Below are positions 4,366 to 64,000 of a DNA stretch of 64,000 nt, piece by piece (within the stretch, counting starts at the first letter, position 1; each line of letters begins with the position of its first letter). This DNA is from Fulvivirga sp. M361 (lineage in GTDB: Bacteria; Bacteroidota; Bacteroidia; Cytophagales; Cyclobacteriaceae), in assembly GCF_007097395.1 (NCBI RefSeq), contig NZ_VKDC01000033.1, positions 1 to 64,000 on the forward strand, given 5' to 3'. Made by a program: the position numbers and the translations under genes. Below the pieces are notes generated by a model. That model was given only the letters and a program-made list of their open reading frames with translations, searched no databases and was not told the DNA's origin.

Positions 4366-7300
4366 ATGAAATTAAGGTTTACTTTTTTTAATTCAATTGT
4401 TGACTTCAACAAACGTTTACCCATACTAATATTAATATTGATTGTTCATAACCTTGTCTATGGACAAAGTCTTGACATAGTTGGTCCAACCAACGTTGAT
4501 CTTAATGGGACATATCATTATTATATTCCAAATTTTCCGGAACCGATCAATTCCTATACTTGGGATCCGACAGGTATAATTATCAGTGAGAATTCGTATA
4601 GTGTGGATATTAAATGGGACGAACCAGGGGAAAATTATTTGTATGCAGAGTTCTATGGAAGTTCCAACACCTATGTTATAGATCTGATTGTCACTGTAGT
4701 TGATCCCAATCCAGTGCCCTATACTCCAAATGCTCCTTACAGGCCTTTGGATGGCTGTGGAGATGCAGTTGTGAAAAAGACTGGAAGTATCCCTGAAAAT
4801 GTTACCTGGTACTGGCAAACACAACCCAATGGAACAAGTACCTCAGATTCCAGCTCTAGCATTACAGTTTCGAGTTCACAAACAGTTTATCTAAGGGCAA
4901 GACATGATATTTCTGGATTATGGAGCGTCAGCTCTTCGTACTTGGTAGTCAACATAAAGCCTATTCCTGCCGTCCCTTCACCTGCGTCCGTAACCAATAA
5001 TTGTGGCAGCAGCCTATTGACTCGTGGTAATCCTCCCAGCGCGATCACATGGTACTGGCAGAGCAGCGTCTCAGGAACCAGTACGTCAAATTCCAGTGCT
5101 TCTGTTACTCGTACTACCGGCAGTACCTATTACCTAAGGGCCAAGTGGAACAACACTGACTGTTGGAGTACTGCGAGAGCTATAAACTATTCAATACAAC
5201 AACCGACACTTTGGTATGCCGATACGGATGGAGATGCCTTTGGTGATCCCAATGTGACGCAAAATGCCTGTTCACAGCCTGCCGGGTATGTAGATAATAA
5301 TCTTGACAGGTGTCCCGAAGAGTACGGAGAAGTGGAGGGATGCCTTTTTACACCTTATGATCTTTCATTATCTGATGAAAATTATGTGTATATCAGGCAA
5401 TACCAGGTGCCCACGACTACACAAACAGTGAAATATAGCAAAGAGGTTGTGGAAGTTGTAAACTACTACGATGCGCTGGGACGTCCAAAACAAAAAATCG
5501 AAACTGCGGCAGGCGGAATTGATGCTGAAAATTACGTCAACGAACTGTCCATGGACTGGAGCGCAGGCACAGGTAGTGCTCCTTTCTTCAACCAAAATGG
5601 TAGTGCCAGTGAAAACAATAGGTTAACGGGGGTGGATCCCAGTGGTGGACTTTCTTTGCTTTGGAAATGTGGTAATGATATTGAAAGTAATGCTGACGGA
5701 GGATGGAACACTGATTACTTCAATGTAGACAAAAGTACGGGATATCGATATACAGTTTGGGTAAAACGTACAGGCTCTCAAAATGGAACTACCTATCATG
5801 GAACCAATAACGTCAGTAATCTTGCAGGAACAGTACAAAGCAATCCCTATTTCTGGTATGGAGATCTGCCACAGCTTGACACCTGGTACCTGATCGTAGG
5901 GATCATTTATCCCTACGATTATGCCGGAGAGGATCAAGGGATTAGTGGAGTATATGACCAACAAGGAAACAAGGTACTGGATGGAACCGAATTTAAGTGG
6001 AATAGCAATACTACCACAGCCCGGTTCAGAAGTTACCTGGATTACAGTACCGATCTCAGCACTAATCAGTTTTTTTGGAACCCGATCGTGCAAAGATCAG
6101 ATGGGAATGAAACTTTATTATCTGATCTTATTAATGATCAACAGGGAAAACCAGCAGACATAGTAACTCATATCGAACATGATCAATATGGCAGGCAGGC
6201 AAAAATGTATTTACCGTTTGCGTCCGGCACCCTGGCTGGAAGTTATAAAACGATAAATATCACTGAAGATATCCATCAATATTACAAGAACCGCCATAGT
6301 GATGACTTTCCCGGAGTAGCTCTTGCTGACGTAAATGCGTATTCAGAAAGTATTTATGAAGCCTCTCCTCTTGACCGGGTACTGGAAAAGGCTGCTCCTG
6401 GGAAAACCTGGAAAGCGGATCCCGTTGTTAATACAGATCATACAATAAAATTTGATAGGAATAGCAATGGGGCTAGCGAAGTAGTATTCTTTTCTGTTGA
6501 TTTTCCAAATAGTGGTGATACTTCGTCCCCCGTTTTGGTCAAAAACGGGAATTATAATGCAAATGAACTTTACGCAACCATAATCAAAGATGAAAATTGG
6601 CAACCCGGACAGGCCTATATAGATAATCATACTACCAGAGAGTATAAAGATAAATTAGGCCGTTTAATATTAAAACGCACCTACAATGCAAGCGAAGTAC
6701 TCAACACTTACTATGTCTACGACGATTTCGGTAATCTTAGCTTCGTTCTGCCACCCAAGGTAGATGTCAATGATGGAGTGAGCCAGGAAGAACTTTCGAA
6801 ATTATGCTACCAGTATAGGTATGATCACCGAAATCGTGCATTTGCCAGGAAGCTTCCAGGAAAAGGTTGGGAATATACCATCTTTAATGAGCTTGATCTG
6901 CCTGTTTTGACACAAGATGGCAATCAGCGAAGTAAAGATGAGTGGCTGTTTACCAAGTATGATGTTTTGAACCGCACTATAAGCACCGGTACCCTCCACG
7001 ATTCAGGGAGTAGAACGGTCTTACAGCAAACCGTTGATCGACATTTTGCTACCAACGATTTTAGCTGGGACACACATTCAGGTGTGGTGTTTAACGGGGA
7101 TCAGCGATTTACCAAAACCGCAACGGATTCATGGGGCAATGCCATACTGGCTTCTTTACCTATTGCCGGTGCCGGAGAAGATGCCATGATAATGATAGAA
7201 GCCCAACAAACCGACAAGGGATTCAGGTTTGGATTTGATGACTCCAGCGACAATACGGTATACAACGATATTGATCATTCCATTTACGTTCAGGTAACCG

Positions 7301-10300: not shown

Positions 10301-12366
10301 TGCTCAAGTACATGGAACCGCTTCAGGGAAAGCGGGTACGGGTGAAAGCAAAACTGTACCTGCCTTCCGGGAACACGAATGTAGACGGTGTACAAATAGG
10401 GATAGGAGCTTACAACAGTGCGATCTATACCGCTACCGATCAATGGTTAGATATCGAATATTTCCTGGACGATGTGGAGAATACAAACGACGGATTTGTG
10501 TATTTTCACATGGTATCCGGGGGAAATCAGATCTTCACGGGGGCTAATAGTGTCACGGACGATTTATTTTACCTTAAGGATATCGAAGTAAGCACAGTAG
10601 AACCGGTGAAGACAACAGATTATATAGGCGAGTTTATTTATGAAGATGGGGAGATAGCCTTGATCCAGCATGAAGAGGGGAGGATTGTGTTTGATCCGGT
10701 TACGGAGGTGCCTGAATACCAGTACCACCTCAAAGACCATTTGGGCAATACCCGAGTGACGTTTACGACGAAACCCAAAACGATTGAGTTCACAGCGAAC
10801 TATGAAAACAACCCGGCAGTGCCTGATGATCTGGGCTTGTTTGAAAAGGTAGATCACACGACCCTTACTTCCAATGACCTGTTCGACCATACCGATGCAA
10901 CAGGAACAATATACACGTACACTCAACTACTAACAGGAGGATTAAACTCTCAGATCGGTTCGGTGATCGCTATCCCTGTAGGTATGGGAGACACCTTACA
11001 TGCAGAAGTCTTTGCGAAATACAAAGATAACTCAGGCAATGGCAACAACAGTGGGGCATTGGCTTTGGCTAACCTGTTAGTCACTGCCTTTACAGGAGGC
11101 ACAGGTTATGTCAATGAGTTAGGCAACCAAAGCATTCATAATAACTTCCAATCGGGTGCTTTGATCGGTACTACGGGGTTTGCTCCTGAAGATAGTGATG
11201 CTCCTATGGCCTTTTTGAATGTGATGTTCTTGCCGGAAGGTGAGTTGGTCAGTTTAGACAGTGCAGTATCTTTTGCCTATGATCAGATAGATGCAGCAGC
11301 CCAGCAGCCTAATACATCTGTGAAAGCTGCCCATGATCGATTGCATGTTGATAACTTCCAGGCTCCTAGCAATGGATATATACTGGTGTATGTAAGTAAT
11401 GAGAGTAGTATGATGACCGAAGTGTATTTTGATGATTTAAAAATAACTGTCAATGAGCATCCGGTGATCCAGACGGATAACTACTATCCCTTTGGAATGG
11501 CTCATGGGAACGGGTATCAACGTGTTACAGCTCAAAAAAATAAGTTTAAGTACAACGGTTTTGAATTACAGACTGCTTTAGACTGGGGTGTGTATGATTA
11601 CCAAGCAAGGTACTATGATCCTCAAATAGGACGATTCTTAATGGTTGATCCTGCTGCGGATTTGATGCGAAGGCATAGCCCTTACAATTATGCGTTCGAC
11701 AACCCGATCCGGTTTGTTGATCCAGATGGGATGATGCCGGGTGATGGAATATTTGGTGGGTTTGTTTCCAATCTAGCTACAAAGGCTAAAAATTATGTTG
11801 CTGCTAAGGTCAATGAAGCCATAGTTAACACTGGAAGGGCCATAGTACAGGAAGTTAGATCTTACGCTAATGATCTAGAGATAAGTTTTTATGGTAAGGC
11901 GGAAGGAAAATTGACAACTGGCCCTAGGATAGCCGGTGAGATTAAAGGAGTCGGTTTTGATGTAGATCTAGGCTCTAAAGAAATAGAATCAATAGAAGGA
12001 GAATTGACTGTAAATGTAAAAACGGGAGAGTTTGGTGCTGATGGCAATATTGATTACACGCTAGAAAATGGGAATGATAAATATACTGAAGGAGGAAGCG
12101 TAGGTTATTTGGTGGAAGGAGAGTATAAGGAAGAAAGCTTACAAAATTCAAACGGGGAAGTGGTGAAAGAGAAATCTTCAGGCAGTATGACCGTTGGAGT
12201 TGGAGTTGGAGCTAAATTTACTTTAGAATCAGGATCCTCTGAAGAATTTGAAACCCAATCTCTGAAAGGGGGGGCTGCTTTTGGAGGCAAAGTTGGAGCG
12301 GGTTTTGTTGTAGAAGGCGAACTACAGCTTGGACTAAAAATCGAAAGGAAAGTTGAACGAGATTAG
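4366..12366 (+). CDS. Giant secreted RHS/YD-repeat polymorphic toxin-like protein with lectin-like modules
   Basis: A 2666-residue protein. Residues 1-34 form a signal peptide (hydrophobic ILILILIVHNLVYGQ). Two Ig-like repeats follow at about 127-275 (each with VTWYWQ or ITWYWQ), then a calcium-binding-type DTDGDAFGD segment. A DUF6443-like start of the RHS region follows (VVNYYDALGRPKQKIE, about 365-380). Four lectin-like modules lie at roughly 905-1047, 1205-1325, 1364-1485 and 1550-1670; each carries a variant of FGLSxxN...IDYAL...VYExG...GDxxxxxRxGxxxxYxxN. A jelly-roll-like segment (about 1935-2080), HLKDHLGNTRVTF, and the RHS core YDYQARYYDPQIGRFL (about 2409-2424) follow. After PDGMMPGDG (about 2455) the sequence changes to a 210-residue Gly-rich, beta-strand tail that is visibly AT-richer than the core. 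The architecture fits a cell-surface or delivered toxin with an exchangeable tip; the tail's activity is unknown. Confidence 0.85.
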   Translation: MKLRFTFFNSIVDFNKRLPILILILIVHNLVYGQSLDIVGPTNVDLNGTYHYYIPNFPEPINSYTWDPTGIIISENSYSVDIKWDEPGENYLYAEFYGSSNTYVIDLIVTVVDPNPVPYTPNAPYRPLDGCGDAVVKKTGSIPENVTWYWQTQPNGTSTSDSSSSITVSSSQTVYLRARHDISGLWSVSSSYLVVNIKPIPAVPSPASVTNNCGSSLLTRGNPPSAITWYWQSSVSGTSTSNSSASVTRTTGSTYYLRAKWNNTDCWSTARAINYSIQQPTLWYADTDGDAFGDPNVTQNACSQPAGYVDNNLDRCPEEYGEVEGCLFTPYDLSLSDENYVYIRQYQVPTTTQTVKYSKEVVEVVNYYDALGRPKQKIETAAGGIDAENYVNELSMDWSAGTGSAPFFNQNGSASENNRLTGVDPSGGLSLLWKCGNDIESNADGGWNTDYFNVDKSTGYRYTVWVKRTGSQNGTTYHGTNNVSNLAGTVQSNPYFWYGDLPQLDTWYLIVGIIYPYDYAGEDQGISGVYDQQGNKVLDGTEFKWNSNTTTARFRSYLDYSTDLSTNQFFWNPIVQRSDGNETLLSDLINDQQGKPADIVTHIEHDQYGRQAKMYLPFASGTLAGSYKTINITEDIHQYYKNRHSDDFPGVALADVNAYSESIYEASPLDRVLEKAAPGKTWKADPVVNTDHTIKFDRNSNGASEVVFFSVDFPNSGDTSSPVLVKNGNYNANELYATIIKDENWQPGQAYIDNHTTREYKDKLGRLILKRTYNASEVLNTYYVYDDFGNLSFVLPPKVDVNDGVSQEELSKLCYQYRYDHRNRAFARKLPGKGWEYTIFNELDLPVLTQDGNQRSKDEWLFTKYDVLNRTISTGTLHDSGSRTVLQQTVDRHFATNDFSWDTHSGVVFNGDQRFTKTATDSWGNAILASLPIAGAGEDAMIMIEAQQTDKGFRFGFDDSSDNTVYNDIDHSIYVQVTGALAIYEGPTSVYSLPSGAYDVGDLLSIERVNGVVYYKRNGELLHTSSVASNGSIKVSTVVHSNNTELYFPKATHEDTGTMFGYSNYSFPFTSKEEDYLTITYYDDYTFHHASLSEYQFKPSEAHSTYFDGVKGQVTGTMTRILGSRQWLRNITYYDDRYRVIQAINDNHLGGSDCMTNTYDFVGKVLESKTKHTTPEPILWRNRKSVREVNSIFTGLASSSGFSSVNTLDEDQDGWVSTVVTSLTGSRVFGLNDNDLNTSVADIDYPVNLYNDVLRVFEPVSQWVVVGSLELGDVIKLSREGGSVKVYQNDVLVHTFSTATTGALVIDTWLAAGSELAYLDCSFSFVRQATAPYDILWTGLSRVTQSYDTLTKDAVGGWNGGASSVNRLAAGYDGWVSFKSMFTDKALMVGLSRQDMSIAFNSIEYALSLQANGQIVVYEKGVLINSFGTYQVGDDFRVERNGTQVTYLHNGTPFYTSTTSSATDLIVDVSLSTAGAAMSDLYCSFGLLHPKEKNFPITRQFDYDHAERLINTWHSVPEHASFTDVVGVEVQGNSMVKTTLAAGYNAGAATVNTIPANKEGWISMEVIGDNYVLFGLSDVNTGTDYQSIDYALLTNPIDQRIVVYEGGTSRGIKAYYEEGDILKVAREGETIRYYRNEQELHTSTLSSTSALIGDFSLYNQGDRINNVQFMGAPILLAHNEYNELGELIEKNLHQEPGGTDFAQSVDYRYNIRGWLTNINNAALTSTTVNDDTNQNTDYWGMELGYNTQLTGVNAVPSYNGNISGAKWSDRLGQRTKAYAYDYDPMNRLIDADHSIVGQTNGPAFDVSIRDGVNSGYDLNGNIKALSRGGTSGAGMDVLTYNYGTGSARSNQLLAVTDAGDTAGFRDGNTTGNDYGYDANGNMTQDLNKDITAISYNHLNLPETVEKTDGQLIYYTYDAGGIKLKQEVHETVLQDQSFTPSELILWSPSNTFRSVISGPIGGESNVLRVYAGGQNSLHRLLKYMEPLQGKRVRVKAKLYLPSGNTNVDGVQIGIGAYNSAIYTATDQWLDIEYFLDDVENTNDGFVYFHMVSGGNQIFTGANSVTDDLFYLKDIEVSTVEPVKTTDYIGEFIYEDGEIALIQHEEGRIVFDPVTEVPEYQYHLKDHLGNTRVTFTTKPKTIEFTANYENNPAVPDDLGLFEKVDHTTLTSNDLFDHTDATGTIYTYTQLLTGGLNSQIGSVIAIPVGMGDTLHAEVFAKYKDNSGNGNNSGALALANLLVTAFTGGTGYVNELGNQSIHNNFQSGALIGTTGFAPEDSDAPMAFLNVMFLPEGELVSLDSAVSFAYDQIDAAAQQPNTSVKAAHDRLHVDNFQAPSNGYILVYVSNESSMMTEVYFDDLKITVNEHPVIQTDNYYPFGMAHGNGYQRVTAQKNKFKYNGFELQTALDWGVYDYQARYYDPQIGRFLMVDPAADLMRRHSPYNYAFDNPIRFVDPDGMMPGDGIFGGFVSNLATKAKNYVAAKVNEAIVNTGRAIVQEVRSYANDLEISFYGKAEGKLTTGPRIAGEIKGVGFDVDLGSKEIESIEGELTVNVKTGEFGADGNIDYTLENGNDKYTEGGSVGYLVEGEYKEESLQNSNGEVVKEKSSGSMTVGVGVGAKFTLESGSSEEFETQSLKGGAAFGGKVGAGFVVEGELQLGLKIERKVERD

Positions 12367-53431: not shown

Positions 53432-54856
53432 ATGGGGAAATTGGAACATTATTTCATTGCAACATTTCTGGTAATTTGCTGCTCGTGTTCCGACACTCCG
53501 GAAACTAAAAAAACACTCCCCAATTTTATTGTCATTTTCACGGACGATCAAGGCTATGGTGATTTGAGTTGCTTTGGCCATCCTACTATTAAAACGCCTC
53601 ATTTGGATCAGATGGCAGCTGAAGGGCAGAAATGGACGCAATTTTATGTAGCCGCGCCTGTATGTACACCCAGCCGTGCCGGTTTACTCACCGGACGGTA
53701 TCCCATCAGAAACGGGATGACTTCGGCTAAAAGCGGTGTATTATTCCCCAACTCGGCGGGAGGATTACCTCAAAGTGAAATTACCATAGCAGAGGTGTTG
53801 AAACAGAAGCACTACGCTACAGCCATGATCGGCAAATGGCATTTGGGCCACCTCCCACAATTTCTACCCACCGCCCAGGGATTTGACTACTATTATGGCA
53901 TCCCCTATTCCAATGACATGAACGCTGTGGGAGAATGGAAAGAGTATCTCAAAAACACGGACGACCCAAATTACCAGGCGGATATAACCATGTATGATGT
54001 TCCGCTTATGGAAAACAATGAGATCATTGAACGCCCTGCTGACCAACGCACGATCACCCATCGTTATACTGAAAAGGCAGTGAGCTACATTCAGGCCAAT
54101 AAAGATCAGCCCTTTTTCTTATACCTGGCCCACAGTTTACCCCACATCCCGCTATTTGCGCATGATGATTTTAAAGGAAAAAGTAAACAAGGACTATATG
54201 GTGATGTCATTGAAGAAATAGATTGGAGTGTAGGCAAGATACTTCAAAAACTTCGAGACGTAAACCTGAAAGACAATACCGTGGTGGTTTTCACTTCTGA
54301 CAACGGCCCCTGGCTGGCTTTCAAAAGTCACGGCGGTTCGGCAGGCCCACTCAGGGCAGGCAAAGGGACTACTTTTGAAGGCGGGCAAAGAGTACCTGCC
54401 ATTTTCTGGGGCCCGGGCATTGTAAAGCCCGCCATTGTCAGTGAAATGGGTTCTACCCTGGACCTGATCCATACCTTTGCTACACTATCAGGCACAAAAG
54501 TACCGGCAGATAGAAAAATGGACGGTTATGACCTTTCTTCGGTGCTAAAGGGGACAACGGAAGTTAGCCCAAGGTCCGAGTTTTTCTATTGGACGGAAGC
54601 AAAATTATATGCGGTCCGATCCGGTAAATGGAAATTACATATTCAGCAAACGGAGCCTATCGTATATTGGAATAAGACCGAACCGCTCGAAAACCCCGAA
54701 TTGTACAATGTAGAAGCGGACATTTCAGAAAAATACGATCGTGCAAGTGCAAAACCTGAGGTAGTAACCCGATTAAAACAGGCACTTAAAGATCATCAGG
54801 CTGATATTACGGATGCTTTACCCGATAATTTGGCGGCTAAGGTAGAGGGTGAATGA
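53432..54856 (+). CDS. Sulfatase (formylglycine-dependent), lipoprotein
   Basis: A 474-residue arylsulfatase-family enzyme. The signal peptide ends in LVICCSC, so the protein is probably lipid-anchored. The metal-binding TDDQGYGDL (about residues 37-45) and the Cys78 of VCTPSRAGLLTGRYP, the C-x-P-S-R motif that becomes formylglycine, are intact. Later motifs MIGKWHLGH and FTSDNGPWLAFKSHGG are also present. It cleaves sulfate esters, for instance from polysaccharides. The last 87 codons plus 38 downstream bases are duplicated at 56336-56634. Confidence 0.93.
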   Translation: MGKLEHYFIATFLVICCSCSDTPETKKTLPNFIVIFTDDQGYGDLSCFGHPTIKTPHLDQMAAEGQKWTQFYVAAPVCTPSRAGLLTGRYPIRNGMTSAKSGVLFPNSAGGLPQSEITIAEVLKQKHYATAMIGKWHLGHLPQFLPTAQGFDYYYGIPYSNDMNAVGEWKEYLKNTDDPNYQADITMYDVPLMENNEIIERPADQRTITHRYTEKAVSYIQANKDQPFFLYLAHSLPHIPLFAHDDFKGKSKQGLYGDVIEEIDWSVGKILQKLRDVNLKDNTVVVFTSDNGPWLAFKSHGGSAGPLRAGKGTTFEGGQRVPAIFWGPGIVKPAIVSEMGSTLDLIHTFATLSGTKVPADRKMDGYDLSSVLKGTTEVSPRSEFFYWTEAKLYAVRSGKWKLHIQQTEPIVYWNKTEPLENPELYNVEADISEKYDRASAKPEVVTRLKQALKDHQADITDALPDNLAAKVEGE

Positions 54857-54894
54857 TGCTGTCTTTTTCAAAACTTGAACCTGCAAAAACCGAT
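54597..54894 (+). repeat. Duplicated sulfatase 3' end, copy A (native)
   Basis: The final part of the intact sulfatase gene and 38 bp beyond it. The same sequence recurs as copy B at 56336-56634, about 1.74 kb downstream, with scattered substitutions. The similarity starts at AAGCAAAATTATATGC and stops just after AAAACCGAT in both copies, so both junctions are sharp. Confidence 0.9.
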
Positions 54895-56335: not shown

Positions 56336-56634
56336 AAGCAAAATTATATGCGGTCCGATCCGGTAAATGGAAATTACATATTCAGCAAACGGAGCCTATC
56401 GTATATTGGAATAAGACCGAACCACTCGAAAATCCCGAATTGTACGATATAGAAGCGGACATTTCAGAAAAATACGATCGTTCAAGCGCAAAACCCGAGA
56501 TAGTAATCCGGTTGAAACAGGTACTTAAAGATCATCAGGCTGATATTACGGATGCTTTACCTGATAATTTGGCGGCTAAGATAGAGGGTGAATGATGCTG
56601 TCTCTTTCAAAACTTGAACCTACAAAAAACCGAT
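56336..56634 (+). repeat. Duplicated sulfatase 3' end, copy B (orphan fragment)
   Basis: About 299 bp that repeat the final 87 codons of the sulfatase and its downstream 38 bp. The copy encodes LYAVRSGKWKLHIQQTEPIV and onward in frame with TGA at 56593-56595, but has no sulfatase active site or start and is therefore a fragment. Copy B differs from A by scattered, mostly conservative changes, so the duplication is not very recent. It abuts the TGTACAA array directly on its right side. Confidence 0.9.
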
Positions 56635-56645
56635 GTGCGACTAGT

Positions 56646-56781
56646 TTGTACAACATTTTATTTTTTTCTTTTTGAGATTGTACAACCTTGTACAACATTT
56701 TTAAAAAAATATTTTCACCTTGTACAAAAGCAAAAACCGTTCTGTACAATCTCATTTCATTTTTATTTTTTTGTTGTACAA
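56646..56781. repeat. Array of six (T/C)TGTACAA palindromes in three 40-bp units
   Basis: TTGTACAA lies at 56646, 56678, 56688, 56720 and 56774, and CTGTACAA at 56742. Start-to-start distances are 32, 10, 32, 22 and 32 bp, so the six sites form three pairs of 40 bp with A/T-rich spacers and all lie near whole helical turns. Units 1 and 2 begin with TTGTACAACATTTT; unit 3 is inverted and shares TTGTACAACA and GAGATTGTACA with unit 1. The palindrome also occurs in front of the recombinase-operon ATPase. It could be a recombinase accessory array, an origin or a multi-site operator. Confidence 0.85.
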
Positions 56782-56789: not shown

Positions 56790-56820
56790 TCATTAACAGG
56801 AGGTTAGCAAGCTAATACCG

Positions 56821-56882
56821 TTTTTTGAGGTAAGTGCGCTTGGGGCAATGGGCAGCTTGTGCAGCGTGCTTACCTCAAAAAA
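56821..56882. repeat. Large inverted repeat (20-bp arms), unexplained hairpin
   Basis: TTTTTTGAGGTAAG at 56821-56834 and CTTACCTCAAAAAA at 56869-56882 are perfectly complementary. With a few more bases the arms reach 20 bp with two mismatches and a 22-base loop. No T-run follows the stem on either strand, so it does not look like a terminator. It might be a folded recombination site or a transfer origin. Confidence 0.65.
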
Positions 56883-56884
56883 AT

Positions 56885-57361
56885 GATGCAAGCCAACTGC
56901 TTATTAACTTCTGGTGGTATCGGTTCTTCGTGCTGCTAAGGACTACTGCAACGATAAAAGCCCCATGATTGGGGTCTACCTTCATTCCATTTCGGCAGAT
57001 AAATTGGGGTTGATCTTTCGCGAGACGCGTGCGAGTTCGACAGAAGCCGGGCAGGAAAAGGGCGATAGCCCGACTGACCGTGTCTGATGGCGGCCGCAGG
57101 CGAGCAATAACTCGGGCTGTGGTTTACTTTTTTACCCATAGCGCCGCTGGTGGCTTAATAACTCATCAAAAAAGTAAAAGGAAACAGCCGTGGCGAGGAA
57201 CACAGGACGGGCAAGTGGAGTAAAAAGCAAGGACAACCCCAGGGAGCTTGTATAGCCTTGCTTTTATGGAGCTCAGTTCCGGCCGAGTACCACAGGCACA
57301 CCTTACCTAAATTACTGCCTTAAGCAGTAACAGCGCGTTGGCCTGTGCGATCTGGGGCGGA
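56885..57361. other. GC-rich structured non-coding tract of the element
   Basis: No convincing gene lies in these 477 bases. They contain many inverted repeats: GGGC-GATA-GCCC at 57060-57071, TTTACTTTTTT (57123-57133) with AAAAAAGTAAA (57168-57178), AAAAGCAAGG (57223-57232) with CCTTGCTTTT (57256-57265) and ACTGC-CTTAA-GCAGT near 57313. A 64-codon plus-strand frame (57029-57223) is Arg-rich and looks fortuitous. The base composition is clearly richer in G+C than the neighbourhood. A regulatory RNA, transfer origin or replication origin is conceivable. Confidence 0.45.
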
Positions 57362-57649: not shown

Positions 57650-57853
57650 TTTTACGGATTTTGGAAGTTTAAAAGAACCCGCCTTAGCTCTTCCATCGTG
57701 CCGTAAGGACGACCTGGTTCGTTTCCTTGCCAGGAACATAGCGGGTGTATTATAAATCAGGTTTGGATTTACATACGGCTTTTGGAAGTAAAATTATCTA
57801 ATTCAATGCCTTTTCCTATGGACTTCTATTTTTATGATTCATAATCGTTTGGT

Positions 57854-61326: not shown

Positions 61327-61351
61327 GCTTTGCGTACTTATTTATTTTTTC

Positions 61352-61366
61352 TGTACAATCATCTAT
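61352..61366 (+). repeat. Direct repeat DR-R bordering the recombinase module
   Basis: TGTACAATCATCTAT, differing from DR-L (56775) by one base, in the same orientation and behind a similar T-rich stretch. It lies 25 bp upstream of the ATPase start and could also serve as an operator for that operon. Confidence 0.6.
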
Positions 61367-62984: not shown

Positions 62985-63358
62985 TTTGATCTTTTGAAAA
63001 ATAATCTGAAAGCCATAGGGTTTTCTGGATGATCTTCATTATACTCTAAAAGTATCAAACTTTCAGCATCAAGATTCTCTATGATATAATTTCTATTACC
63101 CAGAATCAAGATGCTATCCCTTACAGAATATTGAAATTCGGTATTATTCGAATATTCAAACCCACGACCATCTTCGAAAAGATCGAACTTCAAAGAGGTT
63201 CTATAAGGTTTACCATCAAATGTGTACTTTTCACCTGTTTCGCCATTCCGTAAAACTTTCTTGTATGCCTCCCAGCTGCCATAAATTATTTCAGTACTTG
63301 ATGTAGGTTGGCATGAAAAAATCAGGAATAAAATAAATGGTAGAATTAAGTACTTCAC
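62981..63358 (-). CDS. Small lipoprotein, hypothetical
   Basis: A 125-residue protein with a lipoprotein signal (LILPFILFLIFSCQPTSSTE, lipobox Cys16). The mature part is a beta-rich domain (IIYGSWEAYKKVLRNGETGE ... SVRDSILILGNRNYIIENLD) of lipocalin-like size, as in many periplasmic DUF lipoproteins. It shares one base with the upstream frame and overlaps the downstream membrane gene by four bases, so all three genes form one operon. Function unknown. Confidence 0.65.
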   Translation of the reverse strand: MKYLILPFILFLIFSCQPTSSTEIIYGSWEAYKKVLRNGETGEKYTFDGKPYRTSLKFDLFEDGRGFEYSNNTEFQYSVRDSILILGNRNYIIENLDAESLILLEYNEDHPENPMAFRLFFKRSK

Positions 63359-64000
63359 TATTGTTGATTTGATAAATTATTTATGTCTTTGACGATTTGT
63401 TGGAAATTATCTTTTAAATATTGCTGTGCAACTTCTAAATCATCTGAATTAGTTAAATCAAATTGTGATAATACTTGACTCAAACCATTATAAGTGTTGT
63501 TTAAAACTTGTATCGCTTGGTCTTCATTCAGCGAATCATCATTAAAATTCAAAACACCCTCATTAGCAATATTCAAAGCCCCTAAATCACTCTTCACGGC
63601 AATCGCAAATGTTGTTTCTTCCAAAACCTCTTGAGGTGTAGCATCAGAAGCCATCTCGGTCACTGCTCCAAGTAGCCCAAGACCTCGACCAATTTTTTTA
63701 ACAATTGAATTCGCAGATTTTAGCATTCCTCTGTTTTGACCAACCATAGCGTCTTTAGAACCTGCATCTGTTATGAAATCTAAAGTTCCTATTGTACCAG
63801 CTTGGGCGGTTGTAGAAATTGCTGTGTTGTTTTCTCCAATGCTGGCTTTACTGATCTCAGTTCCTACTCCAATTACAGCACCTCCAGGAGCAAATGTAGA
63901 AGCAACAGCCATACCTACATTAAAAGATTTTCGTTCACCAGTGGTCATTCTTCTTGCAATTAATCTTCCACCTACCTTTCTAACATTGCTTCTATTAAAA
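63358..64000 (-). CDS. C-terminal part of a larger protein, possibly an RHS-like toxin (partial)
   Basis: The minus-strand frame is open to the window edge, so the true start lies outside. Visible residues begin FNRSNVRKVGGRLIARRMTT and continue with Gly/Ala-rich helices (VGMAVASTFAPGGAVIGVGT) and an acidic, helical end (DSLNEDQAIQVLNNTYNG). Many Bacteroidota RHS proteins have such Gly/Ala-rich helices between the RHS core and the toxin domain, but nothing diagnostic is in view. The lipoprotein and membrane genes that follow may be its immunity partners. Treat the identity as open. Confidence 0.5.
   Translation of the reverse strand, partial: FNRSNVRKVGGRLIARRMTTGERKSFNVGMAVASTFAPGGAVIGVGTEISKASIGENNTAISTTAQAGTIGTLDFITDAGSKDAMVGQNRGMLKSANSIVKKIGRGLGLLGAVTEMASDATPQEVLEETTFAIAVKSDLGALNIANEGVLNFNDDSLNEDQAIQVLNNTYNGLSQVLSQFDLTNSDDLEVAQQYLKDNFQQIVKDINNLSNQQ

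Follow-up and report, generated by a model that had tools for sequence, protein, structure and literature searches.

The window, as we call the whole stretch of 64,000 nucleotides analysed here, contains an element with genes for an ATPase, two tyrosine recombinases (R1 and R2) and a small protein on one strand, together with a GC-rich structured block on the other (Table 1). The recombinases match Pfam Phage_integrase plus SAM-like domains, an RHS gene follows on the right-hand side of the element, and an array of six short palindromes lies beside the block at the opposite end. The palindromes start at 56646, 56678, 56688, 56720, 56742 and 56774, exactly where an earlier reading of the sequence alone had placed them, and are thus spaced 32-10-32-22-32; five read TTGTACAA and the fifth in order reads CTGTACAA.

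Table 1. Features of the window and of loci compared with it; positions are those of the window unless a locus is named.
Feature	Position	Strand	Remark
Sulfatase 3' end, first copy	54597..54889	+	duplicated
Sulfatase 3' end, second copy	56336..56628	+	95% identical, abuts the array side of the element
Left edge, CTACAAAAAACCGATGTGCGACTAG	56620..56645	.	junction; common to C121
Array of six TTGTACAA/CTGTACAA palindromes	56646..56781	.	proposed operator array
GC-rich structured block	56795..57361	+	antisense to the recombinase operon
Hairpin in block	57115..57189	+	GGCTGTGG-helix-loop-helix-AGGA-ACAGCC
Small protein, 125 aa	57362..57739	-	recurrent family in these elements; no Pfam match above cut-off
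Second tyrosine recombinase R2, 227 aa	58067..58750	-	Pfam Phage_integrase below cut-off
First tyrosine recombinase R1, 321 aa	58734..59699	-	Pfam Phage_integrase above cut-off
ATPase, 519 aa	59767..61326	-	assigned by eye; no Pfam match above cut-off
Single CTGTACAA, 5' of ATPase gene	61351..61358	.	chance level
XRE-type regulator, 70 aa	61517..61729	+	alternative candidate array binder
RHS-type ORF, 3' end (tip)	63358..64000	-	2203-aa ORF, runs on to contig position 69969
XRE-like gene near array	L072 (C112) 11751-11942
XRE-like genes near array	L116 (C72) 6019-6219, 5268-5453
Dense iteron-like cluster	L059 3191-3326
Dense iteron-like cluster	L080 4306-4414
Dense iteron-like cluster	L107 6485-6602

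The element in the window is a damaged copy, having a short R2 and lacking both the left structured block and the RHS orphan piece. The R2 frame compares with 286–330 aa in six relatives (R2 of locus L088 is also short), and because it ends early the protein is probably not functional here. On the array side the element meets the duplicated sulfatase 3' end (293 bp, 95% identical) at a short similarity, the left edge resembling the sequence that follows the first sulfatase copy (54880–54894, CCTGCAAAAACCGAT), so that the array begins 26 bp from a rearrangement junction; the same edge recurs on contig C123 with one letter missing and one changed. The stretch separating the two sulfatase copies encodes a ParE-like toxin, an antitoxin-like protein and a small protein like that of the element, and these genes are probably the remnants of a related element. 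The start of the element's own small protein gene gave an Rfam match to the c4-2 RNA (57671–57750, minus strand, E=1e-5), which was set aside as it scored 39 bits against a gathering score of 41 and lies off the structured block; among the literature matches listed, c4-2 referred to an unrelated cell line. A second element of the genome, on C113 (L057), carries RadC-like and ORF6N-domain genes as cargo.

With a helical turn of 10.5 bp the palindromes of the window array are in phase (R=0.90, p=0.0014), with one of 11.0 bp more weakly so (R=0.73, p=0.029) and with one of 10.0 bp not at all, which supports the proposal that all sites lie on one face of the DNA. The array was also rightly judged unlikely by chance: across the 8.1-Mb genome all 21 forward matches to pairs of TTGTACAA 1–30 bp apart fall inside arrays (reversed control, 0), as do all 18 TGTACA pairs exactly 32 bp apart (control, 1). 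Isolated copies occur at chance level, the window holding 38 sites with at most one mismatch where 38.4 are expected. Since single sites match this expectation, the lone CTGTACAA before the ATPase gene, which the sequence-only reading had counted as a further copy, was rejected as a meaningful site, and the corresponding region between the ATPase and XRE genes of the C113 element lacks TGTACA. Nor does the earlier sorting of the sites into two direct pairs and one inverted pair have a clear meaning for perfect palindromes.

In the assembly, which is 97.55% complete in 148 contigs, complete six-site arrays are found on four contigs, C76 (the window), C58, C112 and C121, and a four-site array spaced 32-10-32 on C72. 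Partial arrays of five sites each stand at the ends of C113 and C123, which overlap by 96 identical bases; these are probably one array, giving a total of six or seven. The window, C121 and C113/C123 arrays belong to recombinase elements. Of the pieces missing in the window, the left structured block is present at C121 and C123, and an orphan RHS piece lies beyond the array at C123 and, by eye but without a tblastn match, at C121.

The remaining arrays, at C58, C112 and C72, lie directly upstream of genes for HTH-like proteins, as operator sites lie upstream of a regulator gene. The arrays of C58 and C112 each occupy the gap between a terminator-like hairpin (recognised by eye) and the gene of a 175–176-aa protein; its likely start codon, an ATG, is one base past the proximal palindrome, within which a TTG stands in the same frame. 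At C72 an in-frame GTG inside the proximal site likewise leads into an HTH-like gene. No promoter was identified. The C58 and C112 proteins are 91% identical, and the C72 protein is 44% (whole alignment) to 47% (BLAST) identical to this type; no member of the gene family was found in 116 other relatives or in the 295 other genomes of a phylum sample (E≤0.001). The C58-type protein looks like Cro/C1 HTH proteins, a weak assignment: it has no Pfam match at E≤0.01, a profile comparison aligned it in register with XRE proteins at a probability of 1.2, and the best relevant solved structure was C.AhdI (E=0.9).

Between the C58 locus and those of the window or C121, homology is confined to the array (136–141 bp). 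As the HTH and element contexts have the array alone in common, we favour, at a probability of about 0.55, the reading that it is an operator for a small HTH-type regulator and has been reused in an element that serves as an integrative RHS-tip exchanger. Dimers of the regulator would bind cooperatively to palindromes some three and one helical turns apart and so control transcription from the array. At its home locus the HTH-like protein would bind the array and repress its own gene. In the elements the copied array may control leftward transcription, through the left block and orphan RHS tip as seen at C121 and C123, or alternatively rightward transcription into the structured block. No HTH-like gene stands alongside the window array or in the other recombinase elements, and regulation there would therefore have to act in trans.

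A second and less likely binder could be the window-type XRE protein, given that C112 has one relative of its gene (E=2e-16) and C72 two (E=3e-22 and 1e-5), all within ∼2.5 kb of the array. The C58 locus has no gene of this type near its array. Scattered repeats of 60–160 bp surround small genes at C58 (L071, 4289–4650 and 6721–6858) and at several places of C112 (L072), some of them near the gene of a 290-aa tyrosine recombinase, and look integron-like at first sight.

How the sites have been kept bears on whether the array in the element could instead be a transposed relic of the HTH module, without present function there. The module is itself repeated, C58 and C112 having in common a 1499-bp block of 96% identity, and the element copies lack the HTH-like gene, as such a relic would. 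The C58 and window arrays show no length difference, however, and agree at 47 of 48 positions in the sites against 57 of 88 in the spacers (p=2e-6), which makes a functionless relic improbable. Similarly, C72 and C58 agree at all 24 core positions and at 24 of 58 others (p=1e-7). Each C72 site has a G or C in place of one outer base, which would be expected of a site and a protein evolving jointly, and the phasing is retained (R=0.99, p=0.0006 at 10.5 bp per turn; p=0.069 at 11.0 bp; absent at 10.0 bp).

The sequence-only reading had likened the array to iterons or to the accessory sites of a nucleoprotein complex, and had proposed looking for it near homologues of the ATPase-recombinase operon in related genomes. 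The three-site core, at up to two mismatches, is absent from the 30 other genomes that have an ATPase relative and from the other 389 of 390 genomes sampled evenly from the order (the control gave one match in one genome), a search that is tied to this motif and could miss arrays built on a different one. We therefore rejected conservation of the array in relatives. A general scan of the fetched element loci gave no comparable array on the block side, and the spacing or a TGTACAA cluster was met solely in loci of the same genome; viral_contigs gave no match to the array, and nothing relevant to TTGTACAA was among the literature matches listed, as judged by titles and the starts of abstracts. 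Some four-copy clusters of other, non-palindromic words, which may be chance occurrences, were seen near the block in L048, L060 and L079 and near the orphan tip in L045/L046. Homologous elements lack the array and the same spacing occurs elsewhere away from any ATPase operon, the two outcomes that the sequence-only reading had itself named as refuting its proposal, and the iteron or accessory role is unsupported; what stands of the earlier proposal is an array of several protein-binding sites, all facing the same side of the DNA, within a recombinase-encoding element.

If the array did serve as arm-type accessory sites of the tyrosine recombinases, shaping the recombination complex at the end next to the block, one would expect the helical phasing and the position of three array loci beside the structured block, with the RHS orphan piece beyond the array at C123 and, by eye, C121. 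The rearrangement junction 26 bp to the left of the window array, and a lone tyrosine recombinase gene related to R1 (E=3e-21) ∼2.2 kb from the C58 array, fit a recombination role as well as an operator. Yet the array is missing in all 30 of the other ATPase genomes, the C112 and C72 flanks (19 and 16 kb fetched) contain no relative of the ATPase or the recombinases, and the att core of relatives, described below, lies in RHS coding DNA and not at such an array, so that we regard accessory sites as unlikely.

Repeats were also sought between the ATPase and R1 genes, where a 7-mer is repeated beyond the shuffled expectation in 12 of 35 gaps at p≤0.01 and in 18 of 35 at p≤0.05 (related elements among these are not independent), compared with 1 of 35 control stretches inside the ATPase gene at p≤0.01. 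The repeated words differ between groups of elements; the dense clusters of Table 1 consist of TTCGCAA and GTATAAC (partly spaced by 11 bp) between ATPase and R1, and of AATTACG between R1 and R2. If the family has iterons or arm sites at all, the repeats between ATPase and R1 are better candidates than the TTGTACAA array. That the array is itself an iteron set, serving an excised circle or a former plasmid as replication origin or partition site and recognised by an initiator or HTH protein, seems to us doubtful. Its spacers are AT-rich, the element encodes a relative of primase-fused ATPases, one copy of the element closes as a circle, and relatives do carry iteron-like repeats; these, however, have another place and another sequence, the gap of the window itself shows no significant repeat (p=0.60), and the array also stands upstream of HTH-like genes whose fetched flanks contain no ATPase relative.

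The operator reading leaves the element itself to be accounted for. ATPase relatives are present in 31 of 194 genomes, the Fulvivirga genome included. A longer relative (908 aa) has a primase-like front part with a CHC2 zinc ribbon and Toprim, others are also annotated CHC2/Toprim, and a plasmid collection yielded 30 records with ATPase relatives, 13 of them from Leptospira, with CHC2 or Toprim annotated in 8 of the 10 rows listed. Relatives of R1 were absent from viral_contigs and present at two loci of genome_contigs. The order ATPase, R1, R2 is constant in nearly all fetched loci, and in many R2 is followed by the small protein gene and the antisense GC-rich block. Exceptions are block matches on the operon strand (L052), on the ATPase side (L083, L084) or on both strands (L050, L060), and several loci in which none was found.

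Among 40 ATPase places, counted without duplicate loci, 27 have at least 3 kb upstream, and in 22 of these RHS sequence is present on the same strand no further than 6 kb away; downstream, at least 6 kb is available for 22, of which 18 have RHS sequence on that strand within 9 kb, and none was scored on the opposite strand, L045, L047, L052 and L078 having supplied the RHS queries and matching by construction. Control stretches that do not adjoin the element (L071, L072, L075, L076, L077 and L116) gave no RHS match, and three of six other ATPase-less stretches adjoining or belonging to element loci did. Several RHS pieces stand in a row in L047, L048 and L049, with common repeats of ∼300–640 bp.

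The element carries its own recombinase genes, according to Pfam and to named records, as does a tyrosine-recombinase integrative element, and both a circular form and att cores at the two ends were found in relatives. The two ends of an 8659-bp contig (G009:C44), which do not overlap, can be joined to a circle in which the 310-aa R1 frame is intact, although an exact tandem repeat would look identical; of 18 other short contigs tested, 17 had no terminal overlap and L050 one of 79 bp. The 8659-bp contig comprises XRE, primase-ATPase, R1, R2, two small genes (HicA/HicB-like by eye), the block, and an RHS tip of 413 aa with the gene after it, which may be an immunity gene. Two tandem copies are present on pAT2 of Aureibacter tunicatorum, with a period of 8169 bp and 99.98% identity. 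A 32-bp core coding for Y(R/G)YGFNGKEK marks the passage from RHS core to element tip at the entry and from the exit to the next tip, entry and exit being equal at 30 of 32 bases. The second pAT2 copy abuts at its far end a tip annotated as polymorphic toxin type 47, the DNA of which agrees with the core without a break over the first 14 bases alone. In the chromosomal copy, of which the right end alone was used as the left part differs, 32 of 32 exit bases are kept ahead of a different tip. The same tandem arrangement is seen in Aureispira sp. CCB-E, where the boundary lies at DNA that encodes SNHLGNVLVT, and it therefore appears, from these boundaries, that different subfamilies use different conserved RHS motifs. 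In another genome two 8030-bp copies (99.8% identical) end in RHS core DNA.

The block is 97% identical between the window and C121 and 89–91% at C113, and pieces alike to it are found in many other elements. An automatic alignment fold of 13 block stretches gave 17 pairs, two of them changed on both sides, with an unfavourable covariation term of +0.45. In our view this weak result comes from misalignment of divergent helices, and we therefore extracted the hairpin by its conserved ends and folded each copy alone, a procedure that fixes the outer helix and favours such ends. The L048 stretch, which lies in recombinase genes, was dropped as a chance match and the window copy, identical to that of C121, was added. 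In all 13 copies (12 distinct) GGCTGTGG is followed by the inner helix around its loop, an AGGA-like bulge and ACAGCC, and all fold to the same two-helix form. The inner helix is out of register in the hairpin alignment, and its 5' arm varies between elements (TTTACTTTTTT, TTTTTATTTTT, TTTTGTTTTTT, GTGGATGTG, TCCCGAACCC and TTGCAGGT); its sequence thus changes while pairing is kept. Swapping arms between the most different types usually gave worse pairing, but A/T-rich types cross-paired almost as well, and the longest unbroken helix of L050/L058 (4) is below their pairing with the L060 arm (5). Rfam gave no match over the block at E≤1, and over nine stretches, the c4-2 one included, a search at gathering score returned only a tRNA. 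The kept pairing supports a structured RNA or a folded DNA strand, and the covarying block is a candidate for a new structured RNA or folded DNA of mobile elements.

To judge from gene content and boundaries, the ATPase, two tyrosine recombinases, structured block and RHS toxin tip form one unit, insertion of which at RHS-motif DNA appears to join a new tip to the RHS core in frame, orphaning the old one. Some of the boundaries could be due to homologous recombination between RHS genes, but in our view this does not account for the recurrent linkage of recombinases, block and tip. We consider it probable that the unit is a toxin-tip exchanger, in which the recombinases, an often primase-fused ATPase and the structured RNA or folded single DNA strand would mobilise an RHS tip and its immunity gene, in-frame insertion at conserved motifs such as YGFNGKEKD would orphan the resident tip, and transcription would in this genome be placed under the HTH-operated TTGTACAA array. 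The array is of modest interest in itself, as a likely operator module at no more than seven loci of one genome. An element with a tip, an immunity-like gene, recombinases and cores in RHS codons makes the question of how tips are gained directly testable. Among the papers listed, from a literature collection short of subscription papers, none describes such an element as judged by title and abstract start.

Autoregulated repressors of the XRE/Cro type have several short palindromes upstream of their own gene, and the arrays at C58, C112 and C72 resemble such operators in that phased short palindromes stand upstream of a small HTH-like gene and reach its start. They differ in the number of sites (six over 136 bp, or four at C72), in a protein that is no recognised XRE member, and in the reuse of the array in a mobile element without the gene. 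As to the element, some known elements bring a substitute 3' end for the gene into which they integrate, and similarly insertion here is into coding DNA and the element bears a 3' end; in contrast, that end is a toxin tip, which would alter the product and not restore it. To our knowledge, the gain of polymorphic toxin tips is described as displacement, usually without a dedicated agent. In the RHS C-terminal displacement reportedly set out by Jackson in 2009, a new tip is joined to the RHS core and old tips are left as orphans, as appears to be the case here. While the passages of PMC13183296 that cite this work name no agent, the present system has a recombinase-encoding element with att cores in the codons of RHS motifs, which is likely the agent of tip displacement. 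The rAID elements of gut Bacteroidales, as defined in passages of PMC12247911, consist of a recombinase and an array of short co-oriented orphan immunity genes with conserved intergenic motifs, and likewise link a tyrosine recombinase to cassettes for interbacterial competition in Bacteroidota. By that definition our element is set apart from rAID by its architecture, having two recombinases, an ATPase (often primase-fused), the structured block and a complete RHS tip with a possible immunity gene.
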